DNA from: Gracilaria domingensis
Taxonomy: Eukaryota > Rhodophyta > Florideophyceae > Gracilariales > Gracilariaceae
NCBI GenBank assembly: GCA_022539475.1
Contig: VCMS01000442.1
Coordinates: 18,806-49,362 of the forward strand
Direction of reading: 5' to 3'
Length of the DNA stretch: 30,557 nt
The number at the start of each line of letters is the position of its first letter. The stretch's first letter is position 1. Below the pieces are notes generated by a model. That model ran no database searches. It saw only the letters and a list, made by a program, of their open reading frames with translations, and was not told the origin of the DNA. The position numbers were made by a program, and so were the translations under genes. Shown here one piece after another: positions 7,977 through 30,557 of the stretch.

Positions 7977-9077
7977 GTGGCAGCCACCATGAGGCATCTT
8001 TTGGACAGATTTTGGTGGCCTACTATGCCCGTTGAGGTCACCAAATACGTCAAGAGTTGCAATGGCTGTCAGTTCATGGGACACTTTCTCTCATATCGTG
8101 CCGGCCAACAGGCTCCTCTCACTAATGTGTTTGACACATTTTCTATCGACTTTACTGGACCTTTTAGGCCTACTAGCAGTGGCAACAGGTTTCTTCTGAT
8201 CGGAGTGGAACACTTGACTGGATGGTCCATAGCACTGGCTACAAGGAACGCGACTGCTTCAGAAGTCCTGAGATTTGTTCTACATGAGATTGTCGGTTCC
8301 TTCGGTTACCTTCGGACGATCGTCTCCGATAACGCAACCTCTTTCCTTGCAGCCACCGTTCAGCACTACATGAGAAAGCATGGCATCTCGCTGAAGCCGG
8401 TGCTAGCATATGCACCTGTCTCGAATGCACGCGCAGAAAGAATGGTCGGAACCATTAAGAGAGCCATTGTAAAGATCGTCTATGAAAGAGGAATCAACTG
8501 GGACGAAGCACTACAAGATGTGCTGTACGGATACAGGACTCGTAGGATGTCTGAAGGATATTCACCCTTTCAGCTTCTCTACGGAACGCGTCCTCGTATG
8601 CACCGTACGGACTCCCCTCCTTTGATCCCCGGTGCCACAGAGGCGAATCGTCTCACGGAAGTAGAAGCAGTTACCGTGGGAAGGGCCAGTCGAGTCGACA
8701 GGCAAGTAGCACGGCAAGAAGACGAACGACATGGACACAGGTTCGCAGTTGGAGATCAGGTACTTGTCATGCGTGGTGAAGCCATGTATCCGTCGATCAA
8801 GTGGCCACCGTTTGTCTCTAAGTTCTATGGCCCTTATCGCATCATACGCGCTAGTCATTCGCGCTACTATTTGATCTCCCCGCACCGCCGCATGTCCAGA
8901 AGAGGTATTCATGCGAGAAGGCTCAGGCTCTACGATGAGAGATCGGATAACCTAAGGATTGAGACCAATGACATTCAGGATGCTCTCGCTATGCCGATCT
9001 TGGTGGACTACGAAGTCTACAAACACGAGGTGAACTATTTGGAAGTAGAAGTCGGAGGATTCACCCTGCGTGACTGA
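7854..9077 (+). CDS. int: Integrase of the Gypsy element (DD35E with GPY/F module)
   Basis: Counting from the ATG at 7977, the core carries Asp58 (SIDFTG), Asp118 (IVSDNAT) and Glu154 (NARAERM), with exactly 35 residues between the last two, i.e. a complete DD35E triad. Upstream in the same frame is the zinc module (HDDVGH ... CNGC). Downstream a GPY/F module (KFYGPYRIIRASHSRYYL) near residue 285 identifies a Ty3/Gypsy integrase. The function is insertion of element cDNA into the host genome. The catalytic part looks intact; only the upstream TAG and the missing RT disable the polyprotein. The stop is TGA at 9075-9077. Confidence 0.88.
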   Translation, partial: KLTVWDGRLYRRIGTWLRLVPDIAERIQIIWTFHDDVGHWDVAATMRHLLDRFWWPTMPVEVTKYVKSCNGCQFMGHFLSYRAGQQAPLTNVFDTFSIDFTGPFRPTSSGNRFLLIGVEHLTGWSIALATRNATASEVLRFVLHEIVGSFGYLRTIVSDNATSFLAATVQHYMRKHGISLKPVLAYAPVSNARAERMVGTIKRAIVKIVYERGINWDEALQDVLYGYRTRRMSEGYSPFQLLYGTRPRMHRTDSPPLIPGATEANRLTEVEAVTVGRASRVDRQVARQEDERHGHRFAVGDQVLVMRGEAMYPSIKWPPFVSKFYGPYRIIRASHSRYYLISPHRRMSRRGIHARRLRLYDERSDNLRIETNDIQDALAMPILVDYEVYKHEVNYLEVEVGGFTLRD

Positions 9078-10612: not shown

Positions 10613-11437
10613 ATGGAAGGGGAAGACATTCTCCTACCTCTACTTCTTATGGAGCAAACGTGCCAGACGGCGGCACACAATCAAATTCTGGTTAATCAAG
10701 GCATGCTACTAACCAAACAAATCGGCTCTACGCCCCCCAACGTCTGCGAACGCACCGATGAATGCACACCAGGGCGTTGAAATGCCGTCCTAGGCTCAAA
10801 AGCGCGATATGCAATGCGGCAGTCCACCGTTGTATACAAAGATATACGTGACAACGATCCAGATGTACTTTTGTTTGACAAAACTACACATATGTTCCGT
10901 GAGAACTTTGATCACCTCCACAGCATAGTACGAGACCAAATAGAAATGGCCATAGATGTTCGTAACGTCTTTGGCGAACAGCAGAGAATTCCGCGCGCAC
11001 GACGGTTAGATTCTGAAGAAATGTTATTCTTGTTCTTAGATGTGCTTGGAGCACCGAACGAAGGGGGAATAGGGATAGAAAAAACTGCGCATCGGTATGG
11101 AATCTCACCGGGAACTGTGTCAAACTACTTTCGACATGTTTTGTATGCCTTGTTTAAATGTTTGGATGCCTATCAGCCCAAACTGATTCAATGGCCGGAC
11201 GCTAACGAGCGGAGAGACATGGAAGATTTAATCATTGGCTTCCCAAAATGTGTGTTCTTTGTTGATGGTAACAAATCTAAACGCTGGCGACCAAAGGAAA
11301 ACTCGGAACAGGAACGAGCCTATGATGGCTATAAGAAGGCCCATGCTTGGTCTGTGTTGGCGTTTTGTGACTTGTTTGGGACGTCTGTGTTTCCGGAACG
11401 CTATGTAAAGAGGATAGAATGCTATTTTGTGGATTGA
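10613..11437 (+). pseudogene. PIF/Harbinger-type transposase remnant
   Basis: From ATG 10613 the frame meets TGA at 10778-10780 and continues in the same frame to 11437. In the 207-codon part from 10814 there is a helix-turn-helix (EKTAHRYGISPGTVSNYF, residues 89-106). It is followed by the start of a DDE_Tnp_4/HARBI1-like catalytic domain with Asp151 (FFVDGN) and Asp186 (CDLFG). The protein stops about ten residues after the second Asp, so the final catalytic Glu and the rest of the fold are missing. This family cuts and pastes DNA with 3-bp target duplications; I found neither terminal repeats nor a target duplication here. An inactive relic. Confidence 0.7.
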
Positions 11438-13261: not shown

Positions 13262-14464
13262 ATGGCCTTCCAAAACACCCACAAGGTATCGCATGTACAG
13301 CTTCGCAACCAAACTGCTCTCATACCTATCCATCTCAACGCATTTCCCCATAAGACACACATCACCTTTGACGACTGCCTTCAACTGAAGTACGACGTTG
13401 ACACCGGGGAAGCCACGGTTCGAGGAGTCCAGACCCTTTTATCTCCCGAACTGCTGGATGAACTCAGTGATGTTTATGACATACTTTACGAAGTTTCAAT
13501 TCATGACCGAATCCTTGAACATCCTCCCTTCTTCCACACAATTGGGAATCTTTCAGAGCTACCCAACTACATGTCAGAGGCTCGGTCTTATTCACATAAT
13601 CCCCTGAACATGCTCTCGCTATCCTCTCTCTTGGCATTCTTCCTCTTCGCTTCAGTAGCCATAGGAGCTCTCTATGGGATTATAAAGCCTCTCACAACAC
13701 ACGCTCTTCTCTACGATCGCTCCTGCCGCCAAACACAATCGGGATTCACCATCCTGTACAGCATGCTCGAAACTATGTTTCACATTATTCTGTTTGAATT
13801 GGCATTCTCTCTTCACGCCACAAGATATGGTAGACTCGCATATGGTCCAATGACTCCGTCGCACACATCCAGCACCGTTTCGGCACTGAGGAATAAATAC
13901 CTCGGCATGGGCATCGGTGGGCTTATCGTCCTCAACCTCTCTATCTTCGTCACCTATCAGCTCCGTCCTCCTCCAATCGATGTCATGGATTCTCTCAAAA
14001 CTGCATGTATTTCCTTCTTCCCCGGCGGTTTCTTCTTCGGCTTCTTCACCATTCTCATCAACACATTTGGGATCTATTTCTCTACAAAACATACGTTCAA
14101 CAACATAGCTCCGCTCTCCAATCGGGTGGTATACCGGAGAAGAGGGCTAAATCCGTACTGCCGTTGTATTCTAAACTCGTTCCGGAAAGCTTTGTTCCTT
14201 CAGGATTTCCTGCTTTCTATCAGACTTTTTCTGAACAGATTGGTCCCAGTCTTCTTCGCACACACACTCTCCGATTCTTTGGACCCCGAATCCTTTGGTT
14301 CGTACAGATGTATCCCGCCCCTCCTCACAAACACCTTGTTCATTGTACTACTTGTATGCTCCGGAGTCGTCAAACACGCACCAAGAATCAACGCAAAGCG
14401 ATACTTGTGCGCCATTGGTGAGCACCCTAGACCCCCGACACAACATCTACTGCCTTCTGGCTGA
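13262..14464 (+). CDS. Hypothetical multi-pass membrane protein (400 aa)
   Basis: The ATG lies after a pyrimidine-rich leader (CTCACAATGG context). The first 115 residues are soluble, with an acidic central part. Then come about five hydrophobic segments likely to span a membrane: residues 118-140, 162-185, 214-233, 248-273 and 353-370. A basic loop (YRRRGLNPYCRC) sits between the fourth and fifth. There is no signal peptide and no motif of a known transporter or enzyme that I recognise. It converges with the ParB/oxygenase gene to its right. Possibly cargo of a large element, or simply a host gene. Confidence 0.6.
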   Translation: MAFQNTHKVSHVQLRNQTALIPIHLNAFPHKTHITFDDCLQLKYDVDTGEATVRGVQTLLSPELLDELSDVYDILYEVSIHDRILEHPPFFHTIGNLSELPNYMSEARSYSHNPLNMLSLSSLLAFFLFASVAIGALYGIIKPLTTHALLYDRSCRQTQSGFTILYSMLETMFHIILFELAFSLHATRYGRLAYGPMTPSHTSSTVSALRNKYLGMGIGGLIVLNLSIFVTYQLRPPPIDVMDSLKTACISFFPGGFFFGFFTILINTFGIYFSTKHTFNNIAPLSNRVVYRRRGLNPYCRCILNSFRKALFLQDFLLSIRLFLNRLVPVFFAHTLSDSLDPESFGSYRCIPPLLTNTLFIVLLVCSGVVKHAPRINAKRYLCAIGEHPRPPTQHLLPSG

Positions 14465-14741: not shown

Positions 14742-17700
14742 TCAGTCCTCTTCGCCATCCTCAAGATCGTTTTCAATCTCCTCCACTTCATAATTCTCAT
14801 CTTCGTCATCTTCTCCATACTGTTCTTCCCCTTCCTCTACTATCACCTCATCATTCTCCTCCTCCAAATTCGATGGTTCTGGATTCTTCCTCTTCTCCTT
14901 CATACTAACCAGGTCTTCATCCTCCTTGAACTGAGGTCGAAAGTGTGGGTTAAGGTGTACCGCATCCGGGAGGTTGTATTTCTCAGGTACCATGTACATG
15001 TGGTAACGAAACAAGGGAATCTCGGGGAATCTTCCATCCTCATTTGAAGCGCCTGCATGGAACACATCACCTCTTCCAATAAATATAGACTTAGGCGGAA
15101 CGAAAAACTTCCTCACAAACATCCCCCGTGCCAAACCTTCAAATGCCTTGGGAGTAACTGCGTAGTGTGTATGAGACCCTTTACATACCCAAATTGGAAA
15201 CGACACACTTCCGGACACCATCATAAAGTACCCCGGGTTCTTCTTTTCTTCCAGCTTATCCTCATTCGCCAAGGTCGGGAAATCCGTATGTAACTGCTGC
15301 CGCTTGCATCCAACTGCAGTGCATAACACCCTCCCCCCCGTCTTCGGCGCATACATTCTCTCCTTTTCCACCCTATTATCTTGTAAACCCATTAAAGCAC
15401 ATATCTGTCCCAGTCGGGCATCCAGTAAAGCTCTCTTCTTCACAAGCACATGTCTTTCTACGGCTGCCTCCATGTCATCCACTATGCCTCTTCTGGTAGT
15501 CATGTACCTCTAACCATCTGCGTTGATGATCGGTATCCATGTGATTCGGTTCTCTGGTATCCTAAGGTCTGGAGCCCTCTTGAAGTCCCTTCGGAAGAAG
15601 TCCAGTAATTCCACACTAACATCCCCGTCAATGAGCTTGCTCAAACTCTCTGTCAGCTTCACCAACTCTCCATCCGATGCAAAGCCGTTCAGAATACAGA
15701 AACCTCTGTCTCGAAGCTCGACGTTCTTCTTCACAAAATAGACATACGCAAGAGAGTCGTTCTTCAGTGCATCCCCCCATAACGTCTTCTCGTCGACCTC
15801 CATGCCTCCCATTGCCACGTTCAGGAGTTTATGGCCATGATACGCTGCATGCCAAAAGACTGCATGGTGCACACTTTCAAAGTCGTTGGGCTCCAACAAG
15901 TGGCCTCGGTGTTGCTTCTGGAGATGTATCGCATCCATCCACGGGTACACAGATTTAATGACATTCTCCACTCCAGTCGGCCACTTGCTTGGTAAGGTCT
16001 TCACCAACTTTAGCCACGAATCGTCACCTTCATATGCTTCTTCTTCAGCCTTCTTCAGACCTGGCGCCAATACCTGCGGTACTGTGTCATTGAACGGGTC
16101 AGTGTCCTCTGCCTGTGAGACCACAATTGGTACTCCATCTGAGTCTGTGTCGCTGCCAATGGATATCTGATGACTTTTCAACAAGTTTCTCACCCCCTTC
16201 GCACCAAGACTCCGCAGATGACTGGTAACTTCATCCTGAACAGATTGAATACCCTCCGTCTTTGACTTCTTCCGTTGATTAGGGTTCACGTCTCTCATTG
16301 CATTCCTTCGTCGACGGCTTCGTCTTGAACTCCTCATGCTTCTTGTCTTCGATGGCATATTCTCTTCACTTTCTACATCAGAGTCCTTAGAGCCCTTGCG
16401 CACTGGCGCTTTAGCCTTCCTACTTGCCGAACGTGTGGCCATTCTCTGCGTTGTAGACTCGTCTACCGCTTTGGTCTCAGACTGTGGTTCAGTCGGCGTA
16501 GTACCAGTGGCAGGTTTCAACATATCCATCCCTACACTCTTTGCCAGCTTATCACGAGCAAACCAGACTCTTCTCGAAATCCTTCCTTCCCAGAGCTTCT
16601 TATTCGAAGGTACTTCAATTCGTGCTGCCTGTGTTGCAAGGTACTCACGAACGGTGCGCATTTCAAACTTTGTCACTTCCACCTTCATGGCATACGCTTC
16701 TTCCAATGTAACTTTCTTCTTCTTCGAAAGCTCCTCTGCCAAAGATTGAAGCCTCTTGCAGCAGATAAAGAAGTATTTGCGTACGTCTTCAAAACGACCC
16801 GTCAGTTTCGACACTCGCCTCCTGGAAAAGTATGCAACCAGAGCGTCGAGCGTGAAGTGGGTTGTATGCTCATCCATGGTAAAGAATTCATCACTTGATA
16901 TACAAGAAATTCCAATCTCATGGTAGTCCCCACAAATCCGCTCCAAATGTTCCAGCAATCCAGGACTTCTCGCCACCTCCAACCCCATCTCTGCAAATCT
17001 TGCCAAATGCTTGATATTGTACTGGCCAATGATACCGCAAACACTTAGTGCACCTGCGACAGAGGTCCTCGTCATCTTGCTCAAGTCCTTCTTCTCTTCC
17101 TCAAAAAGGACCCTTATAAATGACACAATAGAATGCACCTTGTCAGCAAAACCCATAAAACGAGCTTGCTTCAATCCATCGTTTAGCACATTGCCAAGAT
17201 TTCTCTCGTGGTCATCTTCTGTCCATCTTTTCTCTTCCACAGCGAAACACAAAGACCTTCACATAGATTCCTAATGTTGGGCATAGATTCACAGAGCTCT
17301 TTGAGTGCTACATGACGATGAGCTCCATCAATCAGCACACAATTCACTTTCAAGCAATTGTTCTGCACTATGTCCTTCTCGGACACATCCTGAGACAGAA
17401 CAGCAACGCTCATGGTCCCAAGTGCCTGTAAGAAGCTTTTGCGTCCAATCTCTTCTTTCAGAGCCTCGACATGATTACGGAACAACCCTCTCACAGTCAT
17501 TTCTGGAACTTGAATGAGCTCAATATCGACTTGAACAGACACATACTCGTAATGATCTAAGTCAAATACCAAACTCGCTAAACTCGTATCGACATCATCA
17601 GGAGGTATCACATCACCTTCATCAAAGAGTTCATTGACGTTGCTTCCAAGGCTTTCCTTCACTAGAACCACGTCTTCGTCTTCGTCTTCATCCACGTCAA

Positions 17701-17854
17701 TCACTTCCATTGTCACTCCACTGCGATTTCCAGCCTGAGTAATAGCTTCCGCAGTGCTGTTCCTCGATGCTCCAGACTGCACAATCGTAGCAGTTTGTTT
17801 ACGAAATGCCGATACAGCACTCTCTGGGGTCGTGGTCATCTTGAATTCTTGCAT
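14742..17854 (-). CDS. ParB-like domain - basic linker - 2OG/Fe(II) oxygenase-like protein, broken in two places
   Basis: Three abutting frames. (1) 17854-17183: after an acidic VIDVDEDEDED stretch comes a ParB/sulfiredoxin-type domain with VLIDGAHRHVALKEL near residue 180, the DGxHR signature of ParB-like nucleases. (2) The frame changes between 17252 and 17183, and a 580-codon frame follows: helical first half, strongly basic Arg/Ser-rich linker at residues 271-333, then a region with RGFCILNGF (516-524) like the N-terminal strand of 2OG dioxygenases. (3) After an in-frame TAG (15510-15512) the same frame goes on to 14742. It has LHTDFP (His72, Asp74), VFHAGA (His149) and a basic RYH near residue 167, a complete HxD...H iron facial triad, then a 45-residue acidic tail. 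Because TAG falls inside the oxygenase domain, this was probably one protein of about 1,030 residues. Intron, read-through or pseudogene cannot be separated from sequence alone. Confidence 0.6.
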
Positions 17855-17860
17855 CTGCTT

Positions 17861-18517
17861 TCAACCACCGTGAACGTTCGATGGTGTTTTCAGCTTTGGC
17901 ACTTGCGCTTGTTTCCCGCCTTGGGGTTTTTTAGCATTCGACGGGGTTTTCACATGAGCCACTTTCATCGACATTCGCTTTCGGGCACTGGATAGAGTTT
18001 TAGGTTCTACCACTCGCACCCGTTTCCCAGCAGTATTCGATGGCTTCTCAGGGGCGACGAATTTGGAACTCAGAGCACCCTTGTCCCCTTCATCAGCGCT
18101 TACGACGTCACCCACCTTAGACATTAAGCTCAGGTCCCAGGCGTAGAAATCGGGCCTGTTCATGTCCTTCAATGTCTTCGGAACAGAATCTTCATCGGTA
18201 CACTTAAAGGGATAGGGATAGGGAGTGTCAAGCTCATGAGATATCTTCGCTCGCCATATACCAACTACATCTTCCCCTGGTTTTCCCTGCAGAGCATGTC
18301 CATGCATTTCCCTTCTGAACGTTGTCTTCCCTCCACCAGCGTCCACTTCAACGAGAACAGCTTTCCCAATCGCTGCTTTGTTCCCTCCTGCCCTCCCTCC
18401 CAACAACAAGGTCACTTCTTCGCCTGGTGCGGGCTTTGACTTCATAGCTGTGGATGCGTTCCCCGTCGCTGCGTTCGGTTCAGCAGGTTTGGTCCCGCTC
18501 CGAAGTTGTGGTGCCAT
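17861..18517 (-). CDS. Hypothetical basic protein (218 aa) upstream of the ParB-oxygenase frame
   Basis: The start is chosen at 18517 because its context, ACCATGG, is a perfect Kozak core; the frame could extend to 18718, but those codons look like leader DNA. The protein has an Ala/Pro/Ser-rich start, a compact middle (EEVTLLLGGRAGG ... GKAVLVEVDAGGGK ... EDVVGIWRAKI) that looks like beta strands, and a Lys/Arg/Pro-rich tail with a repeated K-T-P/L-S pattern (KLKTPSN, HVKTPSN). No known family is recognised; DNA or chromatin binding is a guess from charge. TGA at 17861-17863 is followed in the same frame, after two codons, by the ATG of the ParB frame. The two could be translated from one transcript or originally be one protein. 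Confidence 0.5.
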   Translation of the reverse strand: MAPQLRSGTKPAEPNAATGNASTAMKSKPAPGEEVTLLLGGRAGGNKAAIGKAVLVEVDAGGGKTTFRREMHGHALQGKPGEDVVGIWRAKISHELDTPYPYPFKCTDEDSVPKTLKDMNRPDFYAWDLSLMSKVGDVVSADEGDKGALSSKFVAPEKPSNTAGKRVRVVEPKTLSSARKRMSMKVAHVKTPSNAKKPQGGKQAQVPKLKTPSNVHGG

Positions 18518-18584
18518 GGTTCGTCGAGGCTTTCTCACCTTTCGAGAGCGTCTCATTTGACCCTTTCCCAGTCCCCTCATATCC

Positions 18585-18590
18585 ATTATA
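18585..18590 (-). promoter_or_regulatory. TATA-like element of the leftward unit
   Basis: Read on the minus strand this is TATAAT, about 70 bp before the chosen ATG at 18517. Several CACGTGA/TCACG-type motifs follow further upstream (about 18655-18760). Confidence 0.35.
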
Positions 18591-18856
18591 TGGTGCCAGT
18601 GTGTGTGATACACACGAGTCCTGGTGTTCTTCAAATCGTACGTTTGCTCCCGTGAAGTTGCAACCGCTCGTGTTCGAATCTCCGCCCTTTCTCGCGTGAG
18701 CACAATGAACGCAACCACTCACGTTCAAAACGGCTGCAATGCCCACGTGAGCAGTGTGGGTACAGTTCCTGATGGTTATAAATGGTTGGATCAATGTCTG
18801 ATTCCGTCCTGGTTGACCACTGTCCCCGCCTTTCATCATCTTTGAACATCGCCCAA

Positions 18857-18952
18857 GCGCCGTGTGGGAACCGCGGTTCGCCGAGTTCATAGCCGAGATC
18901 ATAGCTATGATCTCGGCTATGAACTCGGCGAACCGCGGTTCCGGCACGGCGC
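18857..18952. repeat. 96-bp palindrome A
   Basis: The centre is between 18904 and 18905 (ATAG|CTAT). The inner 76 bp (18867-18942) are perfectly palindromic; the outer 10 bp of each arm add two mismatches. Each arm also contains the smaller perfect palindrome GAACCGCGGTTC, so the structure is nested and could extrude a cruciform. Confidence 0.95.
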
Positions 18953-19353
18953 ATCTGACGAAACGCCACGTGTATACCGCCGAAAGGACCCCCCCTGAGG
19001 ACTCCCTGGAGACCACTTCTACTACACAATGCGCACCAAAGCACCTGTTCTCACCCACACCACCACTACCGGTGGTGTTGCTGGCGTTTATGTGGGCAGT
19101 GAATAAGTGACGCCCCGTCGATGGCCGCCGCCCTCCGTGCGCTGCTCCGCTTCCACCGCATCGTCTCTCCTCCTCAAGCCCTTCCCCTCCGTCTTCCACG
19201 CTTGCTACACAATGTGTCCGAAGTGTCATCCGCGTCTCCATCGCTCTCCCGTTTATTCGACGTCACTGCCCACATAAACGCCAGCAAGGGGTCCTCCAGG
19301 GGGGTCCTCAGGGGGGGTCCTTTCGGCGGTATACACGTGGCGTTTCGTCAGAT

Positions 19354-19449
19354 GCGCCGTGCCGGAACCGCGGTACGCCGAGTTCATAGCCGAGATCATA
19401 GCTATGATATCGGCTATGAACTCGGCGAACCGCGGTTCCCACACGGCGC
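19354..19449. repeat. 96-bp palindrome B
   Basis: The same structure as palindrome A, centred between 19401 and 19402, with a few extra mismatches (GGTACG for GGTTCG on the left, GATATC for GATCTC on the right). The outer ends carry the same two-base asymmetry, but reversed, consistent with arm B being an inverted copy of arm A. Confidence 0.95.
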
Positions 19450-19469
19450 TCGGGCGATGTTCAAAGATG

Positions 19470-19749
19470 TACGAACCCAGTGTTTTCTACGTTGGTTTTA
19501 CATACTAGACATATAATGCACTGCACATACTGAGGTGCCCCACCGGTTTGATGTGTTTAGATCCCACTCTCGTCTCTCTATTTCATTACCCGCTCAGTTC
19601 TCGGTAATCCGTCGCAACCGCGCTCTCCACCATTGTTTCCGACGCTTCCCGACGTTTCCGACGCTTCCCACCCATTTAAACATCTCCGAAACTTCTACCG
19701 TTTCACAATACTCGTTTACTTCGCGTCCTTTCCGATTCTCAGTTCTTAC
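19470..19749 (+). promoter_or_regulatory. Upstream region of the rightward unit
   Basis: Contains two tandem 19-bp units (19635-19653 and 19654-19672, GTTTCCGACGCTTCCC core) and a TATA-like ATTTAAA at 19674-19680, about 70 bp before the ATG at 19750. The distance mirrors that of the leftward unit. The rest is pyrimidine-rich leader. Confidence 0.4.
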
Positions 19750-21075
19750 ATGGCGTCCACCGGAAATGACGCTCCTCGGACTCTTATGCAGAGTGTGCTG
19801 GCCGATGAGAACCACGGCACGGTATCCTCTAGCGCATCCTCTAGCGCGTCGTTCGATTCAGCCAGCATGACAACGCGTTTCTTGAACTGTTGGGGGTTGT
19901 TCATTGAGTTGCGAGATGCGTATGCCGCTTCAAGAAGTGGTACTGGTAATCCGCGTGAAGTTGGGTACACGGAAGTTGTGGAATACGCTGTATCAAACCG
20001 TGAACACCTGCCATGTGCACAAGAGTTCATCACCACTGCGGTCAAGGGTCCTTTCCAAAACTACTCCGCAAAAGAACTCACGAAGATCTGTCTGGACGTG
20101 CGTTTTCTGAGCAGGGTCTACAAATATACGCGTATCACTGATCTAGACGACGAGAATTCTGATCGGCGCGTGAGAGATTTGTTTACCTGGAGTCTTGAAA
20201 AGGATGTCGACAACGGTAACTCGTACATAGAACGGGCTTTCTGGAATGACCTTTTCAAACGACATGGTCCAGGCAGTACGCAGACGAAGAGAACTACGTT
20301 CAGGATTGGGCCTCCCACTCGTTTTCAGCAGTTACTCTATCTCTCTTTCGTGAAGCATATAACTTCGGAGAGAAATCTCCCAGCGGCGAAGAGAGGAAGG
20401 ACCGGGAAGGGAACCCATAGAGCTGTGCAGTTCGTCGACGGCTACATAGCTTCGAATGAGACGCACGGGAGACGGATGGCACATGCAGTGCAAACGATTT
20501 GTAAGGGATGGGATTTCTTTGCCTCAACCTTAGGCTTTGGTGATGGTGAGCAGAGGTTGCTGCCATACCTGCTTGTAGAAAAGAAGTCGCTTGGGTTCCA
20601 TGTCATTGAATTCCGCTCTGTTGGGTACAGTCCGGAGTCAGCTTTTCATAAGTTGGGAGAAGAACTGAAACCCACGTTGGATGTGAACGACACCGTTTCT
20701 TGGGTTCATACTCTTCCGGATACTATCGACGCCAACTTACGGGAGTTGGCAAAGGAATTCTTGGCAGATTTCAGCAAGATTGTGTTGAATGGCTTCCTAT
20801 ACAAAATGTCCCCAACGTCAAGATGGAATTTGTTGGAAAGCTTCAGACCTGGCCGCCCCGCACGAGTACCACCCCGTTTCAATGTATTCTCCGAAGAGTA
20901 CGTGTCTCCTATTCGTCAAGCGATGTCTGTACATAACTTCCAACCATCTCGACTTATCCCTAGGGCCGCTTTTCAGGGCAGGATGGAGGAAGTAATACCG
21001 TCACGGTTAAGGTTGAGAACTCGATACAGATTCCGAGCTTTCCAAGAGGAACGCCGCAGGGAAAAGCTCAGTTAA
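19750..21075 (+). CDS. Hypothetical protein (441 aa) upstream of the methyltransferase
   Basis: The start ATG at 19750 (TACATGGCG) is preferred to codons further up, which overlap the tandem promoter repeat. The N-terminus is Ser-rich. The body is a long, mostly helical, mixed-charge region (FLNCWGLFIELRDAYAAS ... AFWNDLFKRHG ... RFQQLLYLSFVKHI) with a beta-rich part (LLPYLLVEKKSLGFHVIEF), then an Arg-rich end (RLRLRTRYRFRAFQEERR). No family is recognised. The frame ends at TAA 21073-21075, where the methyltransferase frame is already open (+1). The two may be one protein joined by a frameshift or small intron, or two consecutive genes. Confidence 0.55.
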   Translation: MASTGNDAPRTLMQSVLADENHGTVSSSASSSASFDSASMTTRFLNCWGLFIELRDAYAASRSGTGNPREVGYTEVVEYAVSNREHLPCAQEFITTAVKGPFQNYSAKELTKICLDVRFLSRVYKYTRITDLDDENSDRRVRDLFTWSLEKDVDNGNSYIERAFWNDLFKRHGPGSTQTKRTTFRIGPPTRFQQLLYLSFVKHITSERNLPAAKRGRTGKGTHRAVQFVDGYIASNETHGRRMAHAVQTICKGWDFFASTLGFGDGEQRLLPYLLVEKKSLGFHVIEFRSVGYSPESAFHKLGEELKPTLDVNDTVSWVHTLPDTIDANLRELAKEFLADFSKIVLNGFLYKMSPTSRWNLLESFRPGRPARVPPRFNVFSEEYVSPIRQAMSVHNFQPSRLIPRAAFQGRMEEVIPSRLRLRTRYRFRAFQEERRREKLS

Positions 21076-22915
21076 CTCCGATGTCATCGTCATCCTCGAT
21101 AGCGAAAATGAAGAAGGTGATACACCTGGTGCCTCTGTTGGGGCGAAAGATAACGTTCCAGATGGGGTTCACCCCCCTCATGACTTTGATGACACGCGCA
21201 TGTTAAATGCTCTAGATGTGGTGCGAGGAAGCATGGAGAAGCAATTCTCAATGCATTGTGTCGGATATGACGAACTGGTGGAGGCCCATGGTACTATCTT
21301 CCCATCGGATACATCTTTGGAAGGCAACGTTCAGTTCGTGCTCACAGACCCACCATATGGCATCCGCGACAGCGAGTACGACGAATTGGCTGACCATGAT
21401 ATGGACAATACTGCGGACATCATGGCATCCATGCTTCGACCAGGAGGACATTTCGTTTTGTTCTGCAGTATCGACCAGTTTGGAGACTGGGAAGAGATTT
21501 TGCGAGAGCACAAGTCGGAGGACGCAAGCGGAAAGAAAACCGCATCATTCTTAGTGGATTCGACGCCCATGAACTTCATTCGTTCTCGTTCGAACCCCTT
21601 GAAGAACCCTGCGCGTAATACTACTCGCCTGTTTGGGGCGACGGAGTACGCCGTGCATGGCGTGAGGAATGGAAACCCGTACGCGGAACAGAAGGTAATG
21701 GTGAACTATCAGAACTTCAACTACGTTTCAGCTCGCTATCCTGGGCACTTTTCTATCATTGACCAGGTTCCAAATCTTATGCCTGTGGAGAGTCTCCGAT
21801 GGACAGTGAAGAGTGGTAGAAGAATTCGAACCGCGAAGGCTCGTCCAGAACAAAAGTCGAGGCAGCTACTGATGGAGCTGATAGCGAAGTTCTCGAATCC
21901 CGGGGATGTTGTGGTTGATCTCTACTCCGGCACGTTCTCGTGCGCGCTGGCATGTATGGATATTGAGGGGCCTCGGCGTTTCATTGGATGTGAGCAAGAT
22001 GAGCAGTGTTTCTCTCATGCCAAGCACAATGCTATTGTGCATTACGCAAGAAAGGTGTGGCGCAATGAATTGAAGATGAAAGAACCGGTTACGAATGAGG
22101 TAGTTCAATCGTCTTATGTGGTGGATGCCAAATTTCCTGAACGGAAACGAAAGACTTCGACTATATGGAATGCTCCCAAGGGATTCCCATCGTACCAATC
22201 TTTCCCATTCCATATCATGTCGTACCTATCCACCTATTGGAATGAACCTGGTCTTATCACTACGTACAAAGAGAAACCGTTCCATGAGTGGCCACTTGCC
22301 TTACAAGGGAAGATGACTACGTTGGACAGTCACACTTTACTCTCTGTCGAGGCGACATCGCTATGGCTCTATGTGAAGAAGTCGAATATCAAACATGCAG
22401 CAAGTGGAAATGGAGTATTTACGAGTAGGGCGTTTTCCGAAGGGGAGGTTATTGGATACTTTTATGGGACCTTGGTGTATCATGATCTAAGCCGACGCAA
22501 TACCACACATTTGACGTATGGAGACGGAATGCTGGGGGCCACTGCATCTCGGTTCAGGAAGTATTGCATGCAAGTGAGGGTGAAGGGGCAAATGTACAAC
22601 ACTCTCCCGCATTATGATACTGAAGTCAACGCTGGTCATGCCTGGATAGTTCCTGCTCCTTTCTGTGTAGCGGGCTATATCAATGACGCGTCATATCGTG
22701 AAGGTGATGAGGACAAGGAATTGGAAGAAATGGATTCTAACATGGCATGCAAACCAAATGTATTCATTCGCCAGCCCACAGAGTATCAGGCTACAACTTT
22801 GGGGCTTTTGGAGAACTACAGACTCCTCGTAGTCACGGCCTCAAGGGACATTAAGGAGCACGACGAAATTTACGTTGACTATGGACCCACATATCCTTGG
22901 GAAAGGTTAACCTAG
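21071..22915 (+). CDS. DNA methyltransferase - SET domain fusion protein
   Basis: The first ATG is at 21200 (571 aa); the frame is open from upstream of 21071 and the extra codons encode an acidic DVIVILDSENEEGD stretch. Residues 40-285 form an N4-cytosine/N6-adenine type DNA methyltransferase. The catalytic motif TDPPYG is at 49-54, a motif X-like segment at 214-230, and the AdoMet motif NPGDVVVDLYSGTFSCALA at 233-251. Catalytic motif before AdoMet motif is the beta-class order. The AdoMet loop is atypical: DLYSGTF replaces the usual DPFxGSG. Residues 391-565 resemble a SET lysine methyltransferase domain: GNGVFTSRAFSEGEVIGYFYG, GYINDA, KPNVFIR, and the closing SRDIKEHDEIYVDYG. No breaks occur in the fused frame. 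Likely nuclear, acting on both DNA and a protein such as a histone; this is inference. The fusion looks unusual to me. Confidence 0.82.
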   Translation, partial: VNSDVIVILDSENEEGDTPGASVGAKDNVPDGVHPPHDFDDTRMLNALDVVRGSMEKQFSMHCVGYDELVEAHGTIFPSDTSLEGNVQFVLTDPPYGIRDSEYDELADHDMDNTADIMASMLRPGGHFVLFCSIDQFGDWEEILREHKSEDASGKKTASFLVDSTPMNFIRSRSNPLKNPARNTTRLFGATEYAVHGVRNGNPYAEQKVMVNYQNFNYVSARYPGHFSIIDQVPNLMPVESLRWTVKSGRRIRTAKARPEQKSRQLLMELIAKFSNPGDVVVDLYSGTFSCALACMDIEGPRRFIGCEQDEQCFSHAKHNAIVHYARKVWRNELKMKEPVTNEVVQSSYVVDAKFPERKRKTSTIWNAPKGFPSYQSFPFHIMSYLSTYWNEPGLITTYKEKPFHEWPLALQGKMTTLDSHTLLSVEATSLWLYVKKSNIKHAASGNGVFTSRAFSEGEVIGYFYGTLVYHDLSRRNTTHLTYGDGMLGATASRFRKYCMQVRVKGQMYNTLPHYDTEVNAGHAWIVPAPFCVAGYINDASYREGDEDKELEEMDSNMACKPNVFIRQPTEYQATTLGLLENYRLLVVTASRDIKEHDEIYVDYGPTYPWERLT

Positions 22916-23377: not shown

Positions 23378-25919
23378 ATGGCCCCTCAACGTGCGGAGCA
23401 TGCAGGTGGTAAACCGCGAAAGGCATCGGTACCGCCGGAGCGCTGGGATACTGGGGTGGCCAAACGTAGGAGCGCGGTCGTCTCACGAAGTAGTGCTACT
23501 AATGGGAGAGGTAGCCGAGGCCGAGCACCTCGTGCTGGACTTCGCAAACCAAAATCTTCATCTACAGTATCGGAAGTAAAACCGAGAAGGAGGTCAGGAG
23601 CTTCCACATGCACTACGGAACGCACAGTAAGTGAAACCGTTCAAGCCAAGGATAGTGCAATGCGTGGGCCTGTTACACGCCACATGGCTGCAATGGAAGA
23701 GCCAAGGGTCAGTGATGATGGAAATGTAGATTCAAAGCGATGAAAGGAAATAAGAGAAGAACGGCTGTACGTCAGAATGTAAGGAGGACAAGAGGCAGTG
23801 GAGGAACAGAAGGTCCTCGTATCGATGATTGTTTCGACAAGGTGAGAACTGCGGATGACAATGCGGAGATGGAAATCGTGGATTGCGCCATCGTGAGAGC
23901 CGAACCTAGAGCCGAACCTGGGGATAGGGAGATACCCAGAAGCGCTGCCGGAACAGAACGTAACAGTTATGATTCGAGAAAAGTGAAGAGGAACGAGAAA
24001 ATGAATGAGGGTGTCTCTCGTGCCAAGAAAGGCAGTGGAAGAAAGGAGCGGGAGTCCACGGACGCAGTAGATATCCCAATGACGTGGAGGAAAGGATAAC
24101 GTGGAGGCGAACGATAACGTGGACGCCGGAAATGCAACGCATATGGCTCCCATCGAAGGCAGGCATGATTCCGTCCTCATATTGAGTCCAGACACAAGGA
24201 AGACGAAGACGAAGACGAGATACAACCGACACCAGTCACAGGTGAGTCACAGAGAAACAGGTTCAATCAGGTCAGAAGAAGGACGAACCATGGAAATGAG
24301 AATAGACGGATGGGGAACGATCGGCAACCTGTCATAGCAAACGCCCGTAGAGAAGTATGGAACGATAAAGATGTTGATCCTGGTGCTTTGTCACGGAGCT
24401 TTTCCCTGCATGGTGCAATGGAAGAAGATGAAGATGAATCCCTTACTCCGCGATACGAGCTTTTGGAAAAGATCGGGAAACTGAAGGAGATCTGTATCGT
24501 ACAATAGAGGACAAGCAAAGTCTGAAAATGAGCGTACGACTTGCTCAGAAGAACATAGAGCAACTGGAGGTTAAGGTCAGAGAACAAGAGGTTCTCATAC
24601 ACTCTTTGAGAGAGGCTCTCAGACGTGGAGGGAAAAGGAACGAACGTGACAGTAACAAGAGCAGGAAGCGGTACAACATGACGTGAACGACGAGTTTGTT
24701 GGTGTTGCGAAGACCGTCTATGACTCCATACTTCAATACGCCAAGACGAGACAAGAGAGCTATGCTTCGAGATGAGTTTACCGGCAAGGAACTGGGGCAA
24801 CCGGAGTGAGACAGTTGGACCTGAGAAAGACGACAGTGTGCTGGTTGTTGATGGGAGGAGATAGTGCCACGGTGCCCAATGGATCTTGCCATGGAGATGA
24901 GGGCGTACACGCCATCCGTACGTGGTGGAGGCGACCATTTGTTGATGCAAATTGTGGAGACGGAGGTAATGAAGCCACGTTGGGAATCTATCCGAGGAAT
25001 GAAAATGGAAGATGACTGTGTGAAACAGTTAACGCACGACATTTGTTTGCGCAGAAGGTTGAAACAGGCTTTAAGTGATGCAATAGGTGTTCGAAAACGC
25101 CATGCGAAGGAGAATTATTGATGGGACTAGGTTACGACATGCTTGTAAGGACCCCGATAAAAAATGATGAAAGGGAGCAGAACAAGTATGAAATACAAAC
25201 CAGAGAGGTACGTGAAAAACTCCTACCCAAAGATGCAAATGGATGTTAGATTCTGTCGTCGTGGAGAACTCAGAAGGTAGAAGATATATGTTTCTCGGGC
25301 TTTAACCCATATCATGCAACCAAGATGAACCATGTGACTTGTTTTTTCGGAACAGCCTGAGCTTGGAGGTGCTGCGTGAGTTCATGGGCTACGACGTTTT
25401 ACAAACAAGTTCGAGGAATACCGAAGAGAGGGATCCAGTGGATGAACAATTATGCATCTGGCACGTCTTGATGCCTGGATAGCGTCCGTTGTTCGCGCGA
25501 CAGAGTCTGAACGAGGGAGAGGTGGTAAGAGACAAGTGTTGTTCTCCAACTTGTTCGGGAAATATCTACCACTGGCACTTGAGAGTATACTGAAGACCGT
25601 GAGGGTCCGCATGCAGCAGAGTTATCCAACAGAGTTCAGAAATGGCCCATCGAATGCTGAAGATGCGCGGCATGGAAATGATGACCGGGTGGGCACTGTG
25701 GTTTACTGGATTCCGTCGAAAAGGAAAATGTACCTTGCTGTCCGAGAAGATGTGTTTATGGGAGAGATCTCTGAGAAGCTCGGAGCTGTACTGGATTGCT
25801 ATGTTGGATGCTGCAGTCGGGGAGACCGTATGTTCTACGACATAACTGCAGAGAGGGATGTGAGGGAAAGGTCTGTGCAAGAAGGATTACATGAGGAGAA
25901 TCGGATAGAACGTCACTAA
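23378..25919 (+). pseudogene. Broken (or spliced) gene for a basic, coiled-coil protein
   Basis: Six or more plus-strand frames follow each other: 23378-23743, 23740-24099 (ATGA overlap), 24101-24337, 24310-24507, a frame at about 24486-24686, then 24864-25121 and 25452-25919. Early parts are Arg/Lys/Ser-rich. At 24486-24640 a convincing coiled coil appears (RLAQKNIEQLEVKVREQEV then LIHSLREALRR), continuing the helix of the previous frame (YELLEKIGKLKE). The last part has a structured look (LFGKYLPLALESILKTV ... VVYWIPSKRKMYLAVREDV). A consensus 5' splice site CAG|GTGAGT at 24239-24247 and AAG|GTGAGA near 23841 mean introns are possible instead of frameshifts. Antisense frames here are Ser-rich shadows. 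No family recognised. Confidence 0.45.
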
Positions 25920-25935
25920 TGCATTATGGTTTACG

Positions 25936-28900
25936 TTACGAAAGTTTGGTGATTGGATGGTAGTGTAAACGAGCTCGGGGATTGCGATAGAATCTGTTAA
26001 TGTAGAATCGGTGGAACTTCCAGTGCAATGGAGGGAAAAAGGGGCGTGCGGGATAGTTTTGTCGGAGGATGTGTACCGAGCCTTTGATCGAAGAGAATGG
26101 GACGAGACCGAACCATGGGGATACAGATGCAGTTGTTGACCGTTTTAGAGAATTGGAGGTTTGCAATGTGTGATCTTCCTCGTCATCCGTGGCCCAGCGG
26201 AGGGAAATGCAGTTCAAGGATTCGTCAATGTTATCCAACGGCTCCGTTACCTCGAAGAAGCGAACAAAGGCAAATTCAGAATCGGAATTGCTTTGGTTAC
26301 ATCTGCTAAAGCGAACCAGGGCAAAGACTTTGCATACCCATGCGGTCGGGAAGTCACAACCGGGAGGAGGAGTTCCATTAACCAGGACGGTAGAGAATTT
26401 TGGGGACTTGGAAGGGCCGAAAGAAGTGGTTGCAAAAATACGTTCACACAAAGAGACCTCCGGCTCTCGCAGTCTAATGCATTGAAAGGAACGATCGTAG
26501 TCATCCAGCGAGGGGCAGAATCCAGAAACAATGTAAGCGGAGTTAACGACGTTGATTTTGATGTCATGGGGGTTGTCCAACGGTTGAAGAGTTTCTAAGC
26601 TTAGGGTGCGGAAGGAAGAGAGGGCGTCGCGAGAGATTTGGTTGATGAACTGCAATGTAGTTTTGGAGAACAAATCTGTGAGAGCAGATGACGGGACGTT
26701 TGGATGGGACCGTAGATACTTGTCGGCCGTGATGATGTCGGAGAGCGAGAATGAACTACCATCACGAACCATGGAGGGACACCGCTCCGACAAACGACTG
26801 GCCAGTTGGTAGACATGGAGAAGTGTTTCCTTACCGAGATGGAGTGTAAGAAATCCTGCGACTCTTGGATTGAGTCCACTGTTTCCTTATGCGCAGTTGA
26901 TCTTCTGCGAGAGGTACGGCGGTAGTGGTTCTTGAAGAGGAGATGCGCGTGCTCGTACACACCTGCATCACCGAAATGGAGGCCTCCGTATCGACGGATG
27001 TCTGGAATGATGTGATCCAGGAGATGGAATTTGAGAGTACGAAAGTTGGAGGCCTGGTATGGACCCAAAACTGAGACAGTTTGAGTCTTGAAGTTCTTGA
27101 TGAGAGTCTCCAAAGAGCGTAAGCGATCATCAGTCCATTCTGGGGCAGTGTGGTAGTGAAGAACGTTATTGACGAGATCGACGTAAGAGGTGAAAATGGT
27201 GGTTATTGGGGCGGGAGATACTTCACCGCAGCAACGGTCGAAGAATGCATCGATGAAGGGGAAGACCATGTCGAGGGCGCGATAGTCCTTTGCTTCTAGC
27301 ATGCCTCTGATTCCGTCAGTGGTGAAGAAGCCGTTGAGAGACTTACCCTTTTCAGATGTCGAGAAATCAATATGAAGCCCTGGAGCCGGAAACGAGCTTT
27401 CGATGTCAGCTAGGATGGAGTTGGCGTGAGTAAGAATAGATGTTCTGATGGACTGAAACGACCTGGAGGATCCATTGAAGCCCACGGAAGTGTGAAGAGA
27501 ATCGGACTTCAGGCGTTCGATTGTGGCGAGTTTGATGAGCTTAGAGATGCCAAGGTGAAAGTTGTGAAGGGGCTCGAAGGAGAAGATTGAATAAGGAGTG
27601 AGCAGTGAAGAGATGTTGAGAAGAGGGTAAGATTCCAGAAAGGACTTGTATGGAGAGAGAGAGGTGGAGTAGAGAAGTTCTGCAGCTTCTTCTTTGAGGT
27701 TCCTTGCAACCCGTGGTCTATGGGAGAGGAGAGCAGAATCTGCCTCGAGAAGTAGGTCATCATGTCTTTTTCTGGTTTGCAAAATGTGTGAGAGGGTTCG
27801 CTCTGTGAGAGTAGGTTGGTAGAGGTTGAGTTTTGAACGAGGGGGGAGACACCGGTGGCAGGGTTTGCTTGGCTTTGTGCCATGAAGTACTGCGAGAATG
27901 TTCTTGGCTTCGGGGATTTCAGCGCTGTAGTTGGAGATGACTGGATGGCATTGACAAAGGACTCCTTTGGCGTCGCGGAAGGGAAAACCCTTCATACCGA
28001 TATGATACAGAGATTTGAGGATGGTTTCTAGGGACTCCTGGACGAGCTGCATGCGCACAATGCGGGTCACGCTGGGGGTTGAGGGAGCGACTTCCAAGGA
28101 ATCTGTGTCAGTGGAGGACGAGTCGGAGGTGAAGGATGTGGGTATGTATCCGACGAGTGTGTAGTTCTGCGTGATGCACTTTCTGCGGAAGGAGTCATTG
28201 AAATTGAGGAGGGTGATGTGAAGAGGATACGACGTAACAGAAGAACTTTTCAAAGAGGTGGAAGACTTGTCTGAATATAGTTGAACGAGGCCGACGAACG
28301 AGTCTGTGCCGGTGATACTGGGATCGTGCCGGATGACGTCGGGGTCCGGAGAATGCATGATATGCCTCTTGATAGTCGGGAAGACATGGCGGCCGAGTTC
28401 CGAAGCCATAGGGTGTGCGATTGCGGTAGTTCCTGTTCTTGAAGCTTGTTTGACTGGATGAAAGAAGGAGTTGCCGTGGGATGCGAGACGAAGTTGTTGT
28501 AGGAGAACCTGAACGGGGTACCTGAGGTAGAGGGTGGCGGAGAAGTAATGGTTTTTGTCATGGATGATGGTTGAGGTGAACCCAATGGAGCTGACTGTTT
28601 CTTCGAAGATTTTGGAGTGCAGTTTCAGACATTCGGCAGCGGAAGTGATGGAGGTCTGGAAGAGGGAAGAGGGAAAGGTGGATTGCTTGAGAATGTTGAT
28701 GAGCTCGTCAGCAGAACGCTTTCCGAGTTTTGTGGCGATGGAGGATATGTAGGTGACGAGGTTATGGATGTGGTCTTTCTCTGAGGGTGGAGAGGGGGAG
28801 AAGGCGTTACCTGAGCCTGTGGAAGGGGACTGGGAGGCGAGTTGGTGATGCGGGCTGAGTATCTGTGCTGCGTCGGATGAGCGTAGGGAGCGAGCAAGCT

Positions 28901-29144
28901 GTTCCTGGAGATAAGGGTCGTCGTCGGCGAGTGCTACGTTATCGGACGGGCGGTTAGAGGGGGGGAAGGAAGGGGGTTCGGTGTTGTTGAGTCTGCGGCG
29001 CTTGGTTCGGGGAGGGAAGTGTGGGGCAAACTCGGAAGAGTGAAACCCACCAGACTGTCCGAAGGTCCGCTCTCGTGGGAGATGGCAGACCAGTGACAGA
29101 GCCCTCTGTACCACCGTAACTCGGTTGTAAGGCCGAAGTGGCAA
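25936..29144 (-). pseudogene. KDZ/Plavaka-like DDE transposase with a frameshift
   Basis: The main frame runs from 29144 (no ATG, so the true start lies upstream). Landmarks of the fungal KDZ/Plavaka group of the CMC superfamily: VQLYSDKSS near residue 290, then YPLHITLLNF and FRRKC...LVGYIP, MKGFPFRDAKG ... HPVISNYSAEIPEAKN ... KPCHRC (385-432), and a PLHNFHLGI element at 525-533. Candidate catalytic acids are Asp292, Asp391 and Glu524 (inference). Between about 26880 and 26800 the sensible sequence switches frame (to LGKETLLHVYQLASRLSE) and continues to 25936. That part carries the C-terminal domain typical of the group (FAFVRFFEV ... FGLVPFSSIKGSVHIL). One indel therefore breaks an otherwise long, well-kept gene. 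The enzyme would cut and paste its own element. Confidence 0.7.
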
Positions 29145-29149
29145 CTGGC

Positions 29150-29985
29150 TATACCTACAGAGGTGCTAGGCCACGTCGTGAGGAAACGATGAGAAACTCC
29201 AGAGATGGGGTGGCATCGGCAACGATGAAACACGACCAACGACAGGTGTAGTCCCAAGAGGGAAAGCAACAGAAAACAACAACCGAACAACACCCACACG
29301 CGACGGGTAGGGCCTCCTCGGCACTGTGCCCGGAGCGGGGCGAGATCCTCCAACGGTAATGCACGGGTTTCCGTAAACACGGCAAAACTCTATACAGAGT
29401 CCGATCACTTCGTAATCTAGTCCTATACCTCCTCGGTACGACCTCGGGTCCCGACATCAACGACAGATGTTCCTCAAAGGTACCGAGAGGGTAGGACCAC
29501 CGTAACCAGACGTGGCTATACTCGCGAGAGTGATAACCCACGTAGGCGGTTGGCGCCAGAGCCTCACTGGTGTAGAGTCCACTCAGGAGAGCGCTACTCG
29601 ACAAAGAGTTCACTTAGAAGTGCTCGGGTTGACTTTACAAAGGTGCTCGCGACGACGAGGTCGAGCTCACCTAAGTAGGTCTAAACTAACTATGTACACG
29701 TGGTGCACACCCGCAGGGGTCCGTACACGTGGCTAGCCCAGTGTCAGGCACCTCAGGTGCACTACCTATTGTCCCGTAATATGCACACACACGGTGGTGT
29801 AGTACACGCGTCCACCTAGCGGTATTGGCCAGCAATGGCAACCCTGATTACAGGTAACTGTGGGAAAGCCATTCCAAAAGTAACCGCCAAAATTGGGTCC
29901 AACTCATAACTCTTCGAGTGCATCCTCGTATCACTCCCATGAGTATATGAGGCGCATCATCCTGATAATCACGCAAATTGCGTTG
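29150..29985. other. Unexplained DNA between the transposase body and its likely N-terminus
   Basis: About 835 bp without a convincing gene; minus-strand frames such as 29613-29155 look like chance. It contains TACACGTGG twice, 29 bp apart (29695 and 29724), repeated ACCACCGTAAC motifs (near 29110 and 29500) and AGGTGCT motifs (29160, 29640). It may be a long intron or another insertion into the transposase gene. Confidence 0.4.
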
Positions 29986-29987
29986 CT

Positions 29988-30130
29988 CTACAGGAAGTGG
30001 GATCCTCGATGAGGTGTTGGGGTGAGAAACGGGTCTGGGTCATTCGTGTGTCTGCATCGCTTCTGATGCTGGGCGAGAGAGGCGAGGGACTGTATATGGA
30101 ATGAGCAGCGGGGAAACAACAGTTGTGCAT
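29988..30130 (-). pseudogene. Probable zinc-finger N-terminus of the KDZ/Plavaka-like transposase
   Basis: Minus-strand codons around 30115-30050 read FPRCSFHIQSLASLAQHQKRC. This resembles the N-terminal finger of Plavaka-type transposases (C..C....S..GL..H...C), but one cysteine falls in another frame next to an ATG at 30130, which reads MHNCCFP. A one- or two-base slip would join them. The frame ends at 29988. A minus-strand TATAAA lies about 115 bp upstream of that ATG, supporting this as the true 5' end of the gene. Confidence 0.4.
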
Positions 30131-30231
30131 GGCTGGGTGAGAGGGTATGAAAGTAGTGAGGGAAGTTGCTTGCAGAGGGAGGTCGGTGGTGATGGTGCGG
30201 CGCAGAATCTTGGAGCACCCTGCAGGGGAGA

Positions 30232-30250
30232 GTATAAAGTGTGTTTATAC
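30232..30250. promoter_or_regulatory. Palindromic TATA element
   Basis: GTATAAA-GTGTG-TTTATAC is a perfect 7-bp inverted repeat giving TATAAA on both strands (30233-30238 plus, 30249-30244 minus). The minus-strand copy is suitably placed for the transposase. Confidence 0.45.
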
Positions 30251-30557
30251 GCCACCAACTCCACCGTGCACGTGATCGTTTACGTACCTTTCCTGCATGT
30301 TTCAGTGTGGGGAGGATTTCGAACTTTTCTGAACACAACTTTCAAAAATTTTCGCGGACGGCGCATTACGCGGCCGGCGATGATTGACGTACAGTGTGGC
30401 TGCGATTGAAGTTCTTCTTCTGTGACCTTCAGTGGCGTTGCCTCTCAGAGTCCTGTCCTGGGATTGTAAACGTGCGAAACCAGGTAAAGTCGAGGCGTAA
30501 ATGTTTGATATGGACGAATATGCGCGCCACTCTGACCAGTGTTGTTTTGCGCGGCGG
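30251..30557. other. Right edge, no gene seen
   Basis: Roughly 300 bp with a CG-rich patch (CGCGGACGGCGCATTACGCG near 30352) and no reading frame that I can support. A terminal inverted repeat of the transposon might lie here or beyond the window. Confidence 0.4.

Follow-up and report, generated by a model that had tools for sequence, protein, structure and literature searches.

The Fused Reading Frame and Its Two Domains

The window analyzed here is a stretch of 30,557 nucleotides from Gracilaria domingensis (C442:18806-49362), and the genome searched comprises 77.9 Mb in 680 contigs. Contig C382 of this genome is matched at 100% over 371 residues by the G. domingensis protein FGB62_382g03. 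On the plus strand of the window, positions 21071-22915 constitute a single open reading frame of 614 aa, in which the Pfam profile search recognized both PF01555 (N6_N4_Mtase) and PF00856 (SET) and which has homologues in the genome and among proteins. This frame is the 3' part of a gene of about 1055 aa, a cargo gene of a DNA transposon of about 20 kb. In another copy of the transposon, C12, the full gene is encoded in one plus-strand frame of about 1055 aa. In the window copy the gene is broken into two frames (19633-21075 and 21071-22915, both on the plus strand), and the former encodes the N-terminal half of the protein in a frame different from that of the rest. No RNA families were found at the gathering threshold.

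An earlier note on this DNA had proposed that a beta-class DNA methyltransferase and a SET-like domain are fused in one uninterrupted frame of a eukaryotic gene. The fusion was confirmed, as the 614-aa frame matches both Pfam families. The methyltransferase domain (21329-22024, plus strand) was assigned by profile, fold, and motifs. It matches PF01555 with the e-value 1.1e-14 (55.4 bits against the curated cut-off of 26.7), and motif IV, LTDPPY at residues 91-96, precedes motif I, DLYSGTFS at residues 283-290; the beta-class assignment is thus upheld. The SET domain (22406-22885, plus strand) matches PF00856 with the e-value 4.1e-8 (34.0 bits against the cut-off of 22.4). The match covers the whole profile (1-105 of 105), in agreement with the proposed SET-like domain, and the motifs SGNGVF (445-450), GYINDA (535-540), CKPNV (560-564), and EIYVDYG (599-605) are recognized.

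Conserved and Altered Residues

The consensus AdoMet motif of beta-class amino DNA methyltransferases is FxGxG. None of the 13 aligned proteins shows it: the second glycine is replaced, giving GTF in 12 of them and GTL in one. The altered motif that the earlier note had pointed out is therefore real, but it is not decay of the window copy alone; shared among the aligned proteins, it is a feature of the family. Motif IV is DPPY or DPPF in all 13 proteins. A relative from the same genome, L066, reads DPFAGTST, which is closer to the usual form. The predicted structure retains the methyltransferase fold despite the altered motif and resembles a beta-class enzyme in fold. The list of the fold search was filled by the methyltransferase part and says nothing on the SET domain.

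SET domains have the consensus motifs GxG, NH, and a catalytic DY. The window protein has GNG and VDY, with IND where NH is usual; the IND motif has diverged in the homologue P0013. The end motif is kept as DY or SY in 10 of the 12 aligned proteins that reach it. When a sequence profile was compared with solved structures, weak SET matches were obtained for KMT2C (e-value 0.0043) and KMT5A/SETD8 (from 0.046).

The Ends and Copies of the Transposon

The element is bounded by 15-bp terminal inverted repeats at which homology breaks sharply; the left one reads CGTCTGTGTTTCCGG and the right one CCGGAAACACAGACG. The left repeat lies at 11382-11396 (plus strand) of the window and was recognized from the sharp stop of homology and the genome-wide repeat count; the right end of this copy is beyond the contig stop at window position 30557. 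Genome-wide counts are 73 for the exact 15-mer and 1 for its reversed control. Pieces 86-99% identical to the window, most of them 95-99%, are present in ten other contigs, one of which (C166) aligns over 4.2 kb only. From end to end, copy C12 measures 19,977 bp. Twelve properly oriented end pairs were found, spaced 13.2-23.9 kb; among the matches listed, eight of them enclose methyltransferase-SET pieces and nine enclose Plavaka. A correctly oriented end repeat is present within 14 kb at 28 of the 42 loci of the window subfamily.

Plavaka transposons make target duplications of 2 or 3 bp. Target duplications were counted in 11 end pairs, C61 being excluded for its ambiguous ends. The flanking dinucleotides match in six pairs (C96, C266, C202, C120, C25, and C277) and not in the other five (C140, C469, C293, C12, and C233). 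At 1 in 16 per pair, six or more matches would arise by chance with a probability of 2.1e-5. The element probably makes 2-bp target duplications.

Positions 18837-19469 of the window contain a 170-182 bp inverted repeat around a centre of about 270-290 bp. This segment is inverted in C12, C161, and C61, whereas C233 and C399 carry it colinear with the window. In C25 and C294 it has collapsed, and it is outside the coverage of the remaining three aligned contigs; it seems to flip between copies. To the left of the transposon, 7977-9077 (plus strand) encodes a retroelement integrase core (rve) and an H2C2 zinc-binding domain.

The window frame has 82 matching pieces in the genome. Among the best candidates scored, the closest, excluding the window itself, are 94-98% identical, and a second group is near 62-69% identity. 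These repeat copies rule out a single-copy host gene. The proposed eukaryotic gene does reside in a eukaryotic genome, but it is the cargo of a repeated transposon of about 20 kb rather than an evident host chromatin gene.

Other Genes of the Element

Copy C12 encodes a 666-aa dioxygenase-like protein and a 416-aa protein on the minus strand, the methyltransferase-SET protein and proteins of 509 and 341 aa on the plus strand, and a 1072-aa Plavaka transposase on the minus strand. The counterparts of all six are fragmented in the window copy. The Plavaka transposase gene (25936-29144, minus strand) lies in pieces and matches PF18759 with the e-value 3.9e-20, and the C12 transposase does so with 5.9e-24. 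The frame at 26601-29144 corresponds to residues ~45-783 of the C12 protein and that at 25936-26793 to residues ~785-1072; the gene is split near residue 784, and a short N-terminal piece is found past an insertion, at 29991-30341. This nested insertion of 971 bp (29022-29992) inside the transposase gene is absent from all nine other copies aligned across the site. It begins with TG and ends with CA, with GGAAGTG on either side.

By comparison with C12, the counterpart of the 509-aa gene occupies 23378-24683 (plus strand) in several frames, and that of the 341-aa gene 24852-25916 (plus strand) in pieces. The counterpart of the 416-aa gene (17183-18718, minus strand) consists of two frames, 17183-17854 and 17861-18718, with no family match above the cut-off. 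A further 400-aa frame at 13262-14464 (plus strand) has no Pfam match and is also present in the loci L057, L058, and L059; several hydrophobic stretches are visible by eye, and it is possibly a membrane protein on the transposon.

2-oxoglutarate Fe(II) dioxygenases have a double-stranded beta helix with the residues HxD...H...R. The gene at 14742-17252 (minus strand), which is in two frames in the window copy, is designated as dioxygenase-like from the motif pattern HTD ... GRGDVFHAG ... RYH only. Its motif residues (LHTDF and GRGD) are invariant in all six aligned proteins, and the family has at least 151 matches in the genome, one group of them near 46-47% identity. The dioxygenase-like proteins scanned gave no Pfam match, their profile gave no credible match to solved structures, and the predicted model has a pLDDT of 38.5. 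In three of these proteins, P0020, P0021, and P0023, a DGxHR stretch is present that by eye presumably resembles ParB-type domains.

A Recurrent Gene Layout in the Genome

The genome-wide profile searches listed at least 150 matches to PF01555, at least 150 to SET, and at least 123 to Plavaka. In related copies, a recurrent layout was recognized, with the dioxygenase-like gene upstream and divergent, and Plavaka downstream and convergent to the methyltransferase. Among the matches listed, a same-strand SET match follows within 1500 bp in 76 of 150 methyltransferase matches. When the pairs of 129 methyltransferase matches were examined, the commonest gap was 388 bp, and 42 of the 63 listed pairs shared a frame; decay or alignment edges probably account for the other 21. 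These same-frame pairs, together with homologues containing both domains, rule out two separate genes run together.

Convergent Plavaka matches were found within 12 kb downstream of 32 of the 150 listed methyltransferase matches, 27 of them at a distance of 5,324-5,855 bp. Other placements are few among the 129 listed methyltransferase matches, with one Plavaka downstream on the same strand and six upstream. For the dioxygenase-like genes, 34 of the 37 listed neighbours within 15 kb are upstream and divergent. Both neighbours are present at 10 of the 129 listed methyltransferase matches, while 118 of the 150 listed have no Plavaka in the layout position and 93 of the 129 listed have no dioxygenase-like neighbour. 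Many copies are broken or near contig ends, and these counts do not prove linkage for the copies without neighbours.

The eight best of the 150 listed SET matches (e-value 2.2e-11 or better) have no methyltransferase or Plavaka neighbour among the matches listed. Of the remaining 142 (8.0e-8 or weaker), 87 have either a methyltransferase directly upstream or a Plavaka in convergent orientation no more than 8 kb away. Judged from these profile matches, element-type SET genes may outnumber ordinary SET genes in the G. domingensis genome.

Homologues and Selective Constraint

A search among 5.8 billion proteins revealed 12 homologues, one of which, from Chondrus crispus, is labelled "adenine specific DNA methyltransferase". 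The SET domain is present in nine of them (P0002-P0008, P0011, and P0013) by the Pfam cut-off or the precomputed domain list. It was not found in P0012, which ends early, nor in P0009 and P0010, which have lost its motifs; the latter two keep the methyltransferase, and SET is thus dispensable in some lineages. P0002 and the dioxygenase homologue P0020 are each on four contigs, the longest being 20,528 bp in both cases, which suggests that they share contigs. A profile search with 13 sequences added three proteins, 328-362 aa long, that contain methyltransferase domains. A tree of 15 rows, with good support for four of its 12 inner branches, places the window protein beside L063; L066, although from the same genome, is placed beside P0003.

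A viral origin was considered and rejected: of 35 stretches picked up in IMG/VR by two peptide patterns, 2 were confirmed, both in the methyltransferase part only (residues 84-323 at 21% identity and 252-312 at 36%). The pattern scan of bacterial and archaeal genomes in GTDB confirmed 4 of 70 stretches, again in the methyltransferase part only, and found no fusion.

For the selection analysis, copies of the window subfamily were compared with L062-L064, three copies of a subfamily 67-69% identical to it. Between the subfamilies, dN over the whole stretch is 0.199-0.212, dS is 2.5-3.6 or saturated, and ω is 0.056-0.170 in the seven comparisons where it is computable. The SET domain shows dS of 1.2-1.6. 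The methyltransferase domain alone shows dN of 0.162-0.179, with dS saturated each time and thus no ratio. Within the window subfamily, dN/dS among six copies is 0.41-1.70 in 14 of 15 pairs, the remaining pair being identical, and is near neutral; within the second subfamily, ω is 0.77 (L062/L063) and 0.60 (L063/L064). The low ratios between and the near-neutral ratios within subfamilies indicate that the subfamilies diverged under constraint and that recent copies decay.

Relationship to Known Systems

CcrM and other beta-class N6-adenine methyltransferases (PF01555) resemble the seaweed protein in fold, motif order, and the DPPY of motif IV. Unlike CcrM, the seaweed protein is eukaryotic, has a long N-terminal region and a fused SET domain, and carries another residue in place of the second glycine in its AdoMet motif. 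The bdelloid rotifer N4CMT (8s9m, 8s9n, and 8s9o) is described as a host gene with a chromodomain (PMC8885841), whereas the seaweed protein is transposon cargo with a SET domain.

In fungi, DNA transposons including Plavaka are reported to bear TET/JBP genes (PMC12730594). In common with the seaweed element, they have Plavaka transposases, and their short target duplications and cargo enzyme for DNA modification correspond to the probable duplications and the predicted enzyme of the seaweed element, but the seaweed cargo is a methyltransferase with SET and the host is a red alga. The termini reported there are TGT..ACA for PlavakaA and CATCA..TGATG for PlavakaB. The seaweed termini, CGTCTGTG..CACAGACG, have CGTCT in place of TGT or CATCA, and so the element falls outside both fungal groups as they are given in that source. 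HarbingerS and MuDR elements of Phytophthora, cited in the same paper, are also DNA transposons with SET cargo, and no DNA methyltransferase fusion is mentioned for them in its available text (PMC12730594). Each of the two components has been described on transposons by itself, and no description of a bacterial-type DNA methyltransferase fused to SET as cargo was found in the literature searched. The suggestion of the earlier note that the fusion is not a described family holds in that no paper on it was found, although a 2016 review on eukaryotic adenine methylation may hold a description, but the Chondrus crispus protein was already deposited.

Possible Roles of the Fusion Protein

The fused architecture is well supported. 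With a probability of roughly one half, the protein serves a Plavaka-lineage transposon of about 20 kb as an accessory enzyme, a predicted dual writer acting on the DNA and the chromatin of the element, likely against silencing. The CcrM-like domain of the full-length protein would methylate adenine, or less likely cytosine at N4, in DNA, while the SET domain would methylate a lysine of a histone or another chromatin protein. Both methylations would target the element's own chromatin. By analogy with the transposon-borne TET/JBP enzymes of fungi, the marks would most likely keep the element expressed against host silencing, and any marks that oppose this might be erased or changed by the product of the divergent dioxygenase-like gene. 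In the related red seaweed Gracilariopsis chorda, DNA methylation has been reported, around 8% of the genome (PMC8566409), and there may thus be something for the element to counteract. More tentatively, the element might carry a whole epigenetic cassette, in which one dual writer for DNA and chromatin proteins is accompanied by a divergent oxygenase editing or erasing marks.

An enzyme that adds marks could equally silence. The element might repress itself through the marks that it writes and thereby do less harm, its copies persisting quietly, as is conceivable from the PF01555 4mC methyltransferase that marks transposons in silent chromatin of bdelloid rotifers (PMC8885841) and from the H3K27me3 reported on roughly half of the repeats in Cyanidioschyzon, another red alga (PMC8566409 and PMC8616336). 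The rotifer precedent is a host gene, however, a fully self-silenced transposon would gain little, and the prevailing 95-99% identity of the copies suggests recent activity; this role is considered unlikely. The protein might instead act on transposition itself, with putative methylation of end repeats or newly copied DNA gating the transposase and SET serving as a docking part. Dam methylation gates the transposase of some bacterial elements. The recurrent linkage of the transposase at a near-constant distance is consistent with such gating, as are P0009 and P0010, whose methyltransferase outlasted the SET motifs, but a SET part used for docking does not readily explain the widely kept DY or SY end motif, and gating is judged unlikely.

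The altered AdoMet motif in all 13 aligned proteins and the unusual IND in SET raise the question of whether catalysis has been lost in one domain or in both, the protein acting as a DNA or chromatin binder. Against this stand the invariable DPPY or DPPF of motif IV, the combination of low dN with saturated or high dS in each of the two domains, and the motif of L066 nearer to the usual form, and a dead enzyme is judged quite improbable. From a single window alone, the frame could be taken for a host chromatin gene or for two genes joined by chance; no evidence supporting this was found, and it is made very improbable by the repeat copies, the end repeats, the linkage to a transposase, and the occurrence of this fusion in Chondrus crispus as well.

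Transposons with single epigenetic enzymes are already known. The preferred reading, an accessory enzyme countering silencing, would add a predicted dual writer for DNA and histones that is conserved as cargo across divergent subfamilies. The occurrence of 6mA and 4mC in multicellular eukaryotes is disputed, and the protein is a candidate source of either mark in such an organism. The way in which mobile DNA controls the chromatin that it occupies could also be tested directly on this protein. If the cassette interpretation is true, the chromatin state of many repeats in this seaweed would be set by marks that the transposons write themselves.
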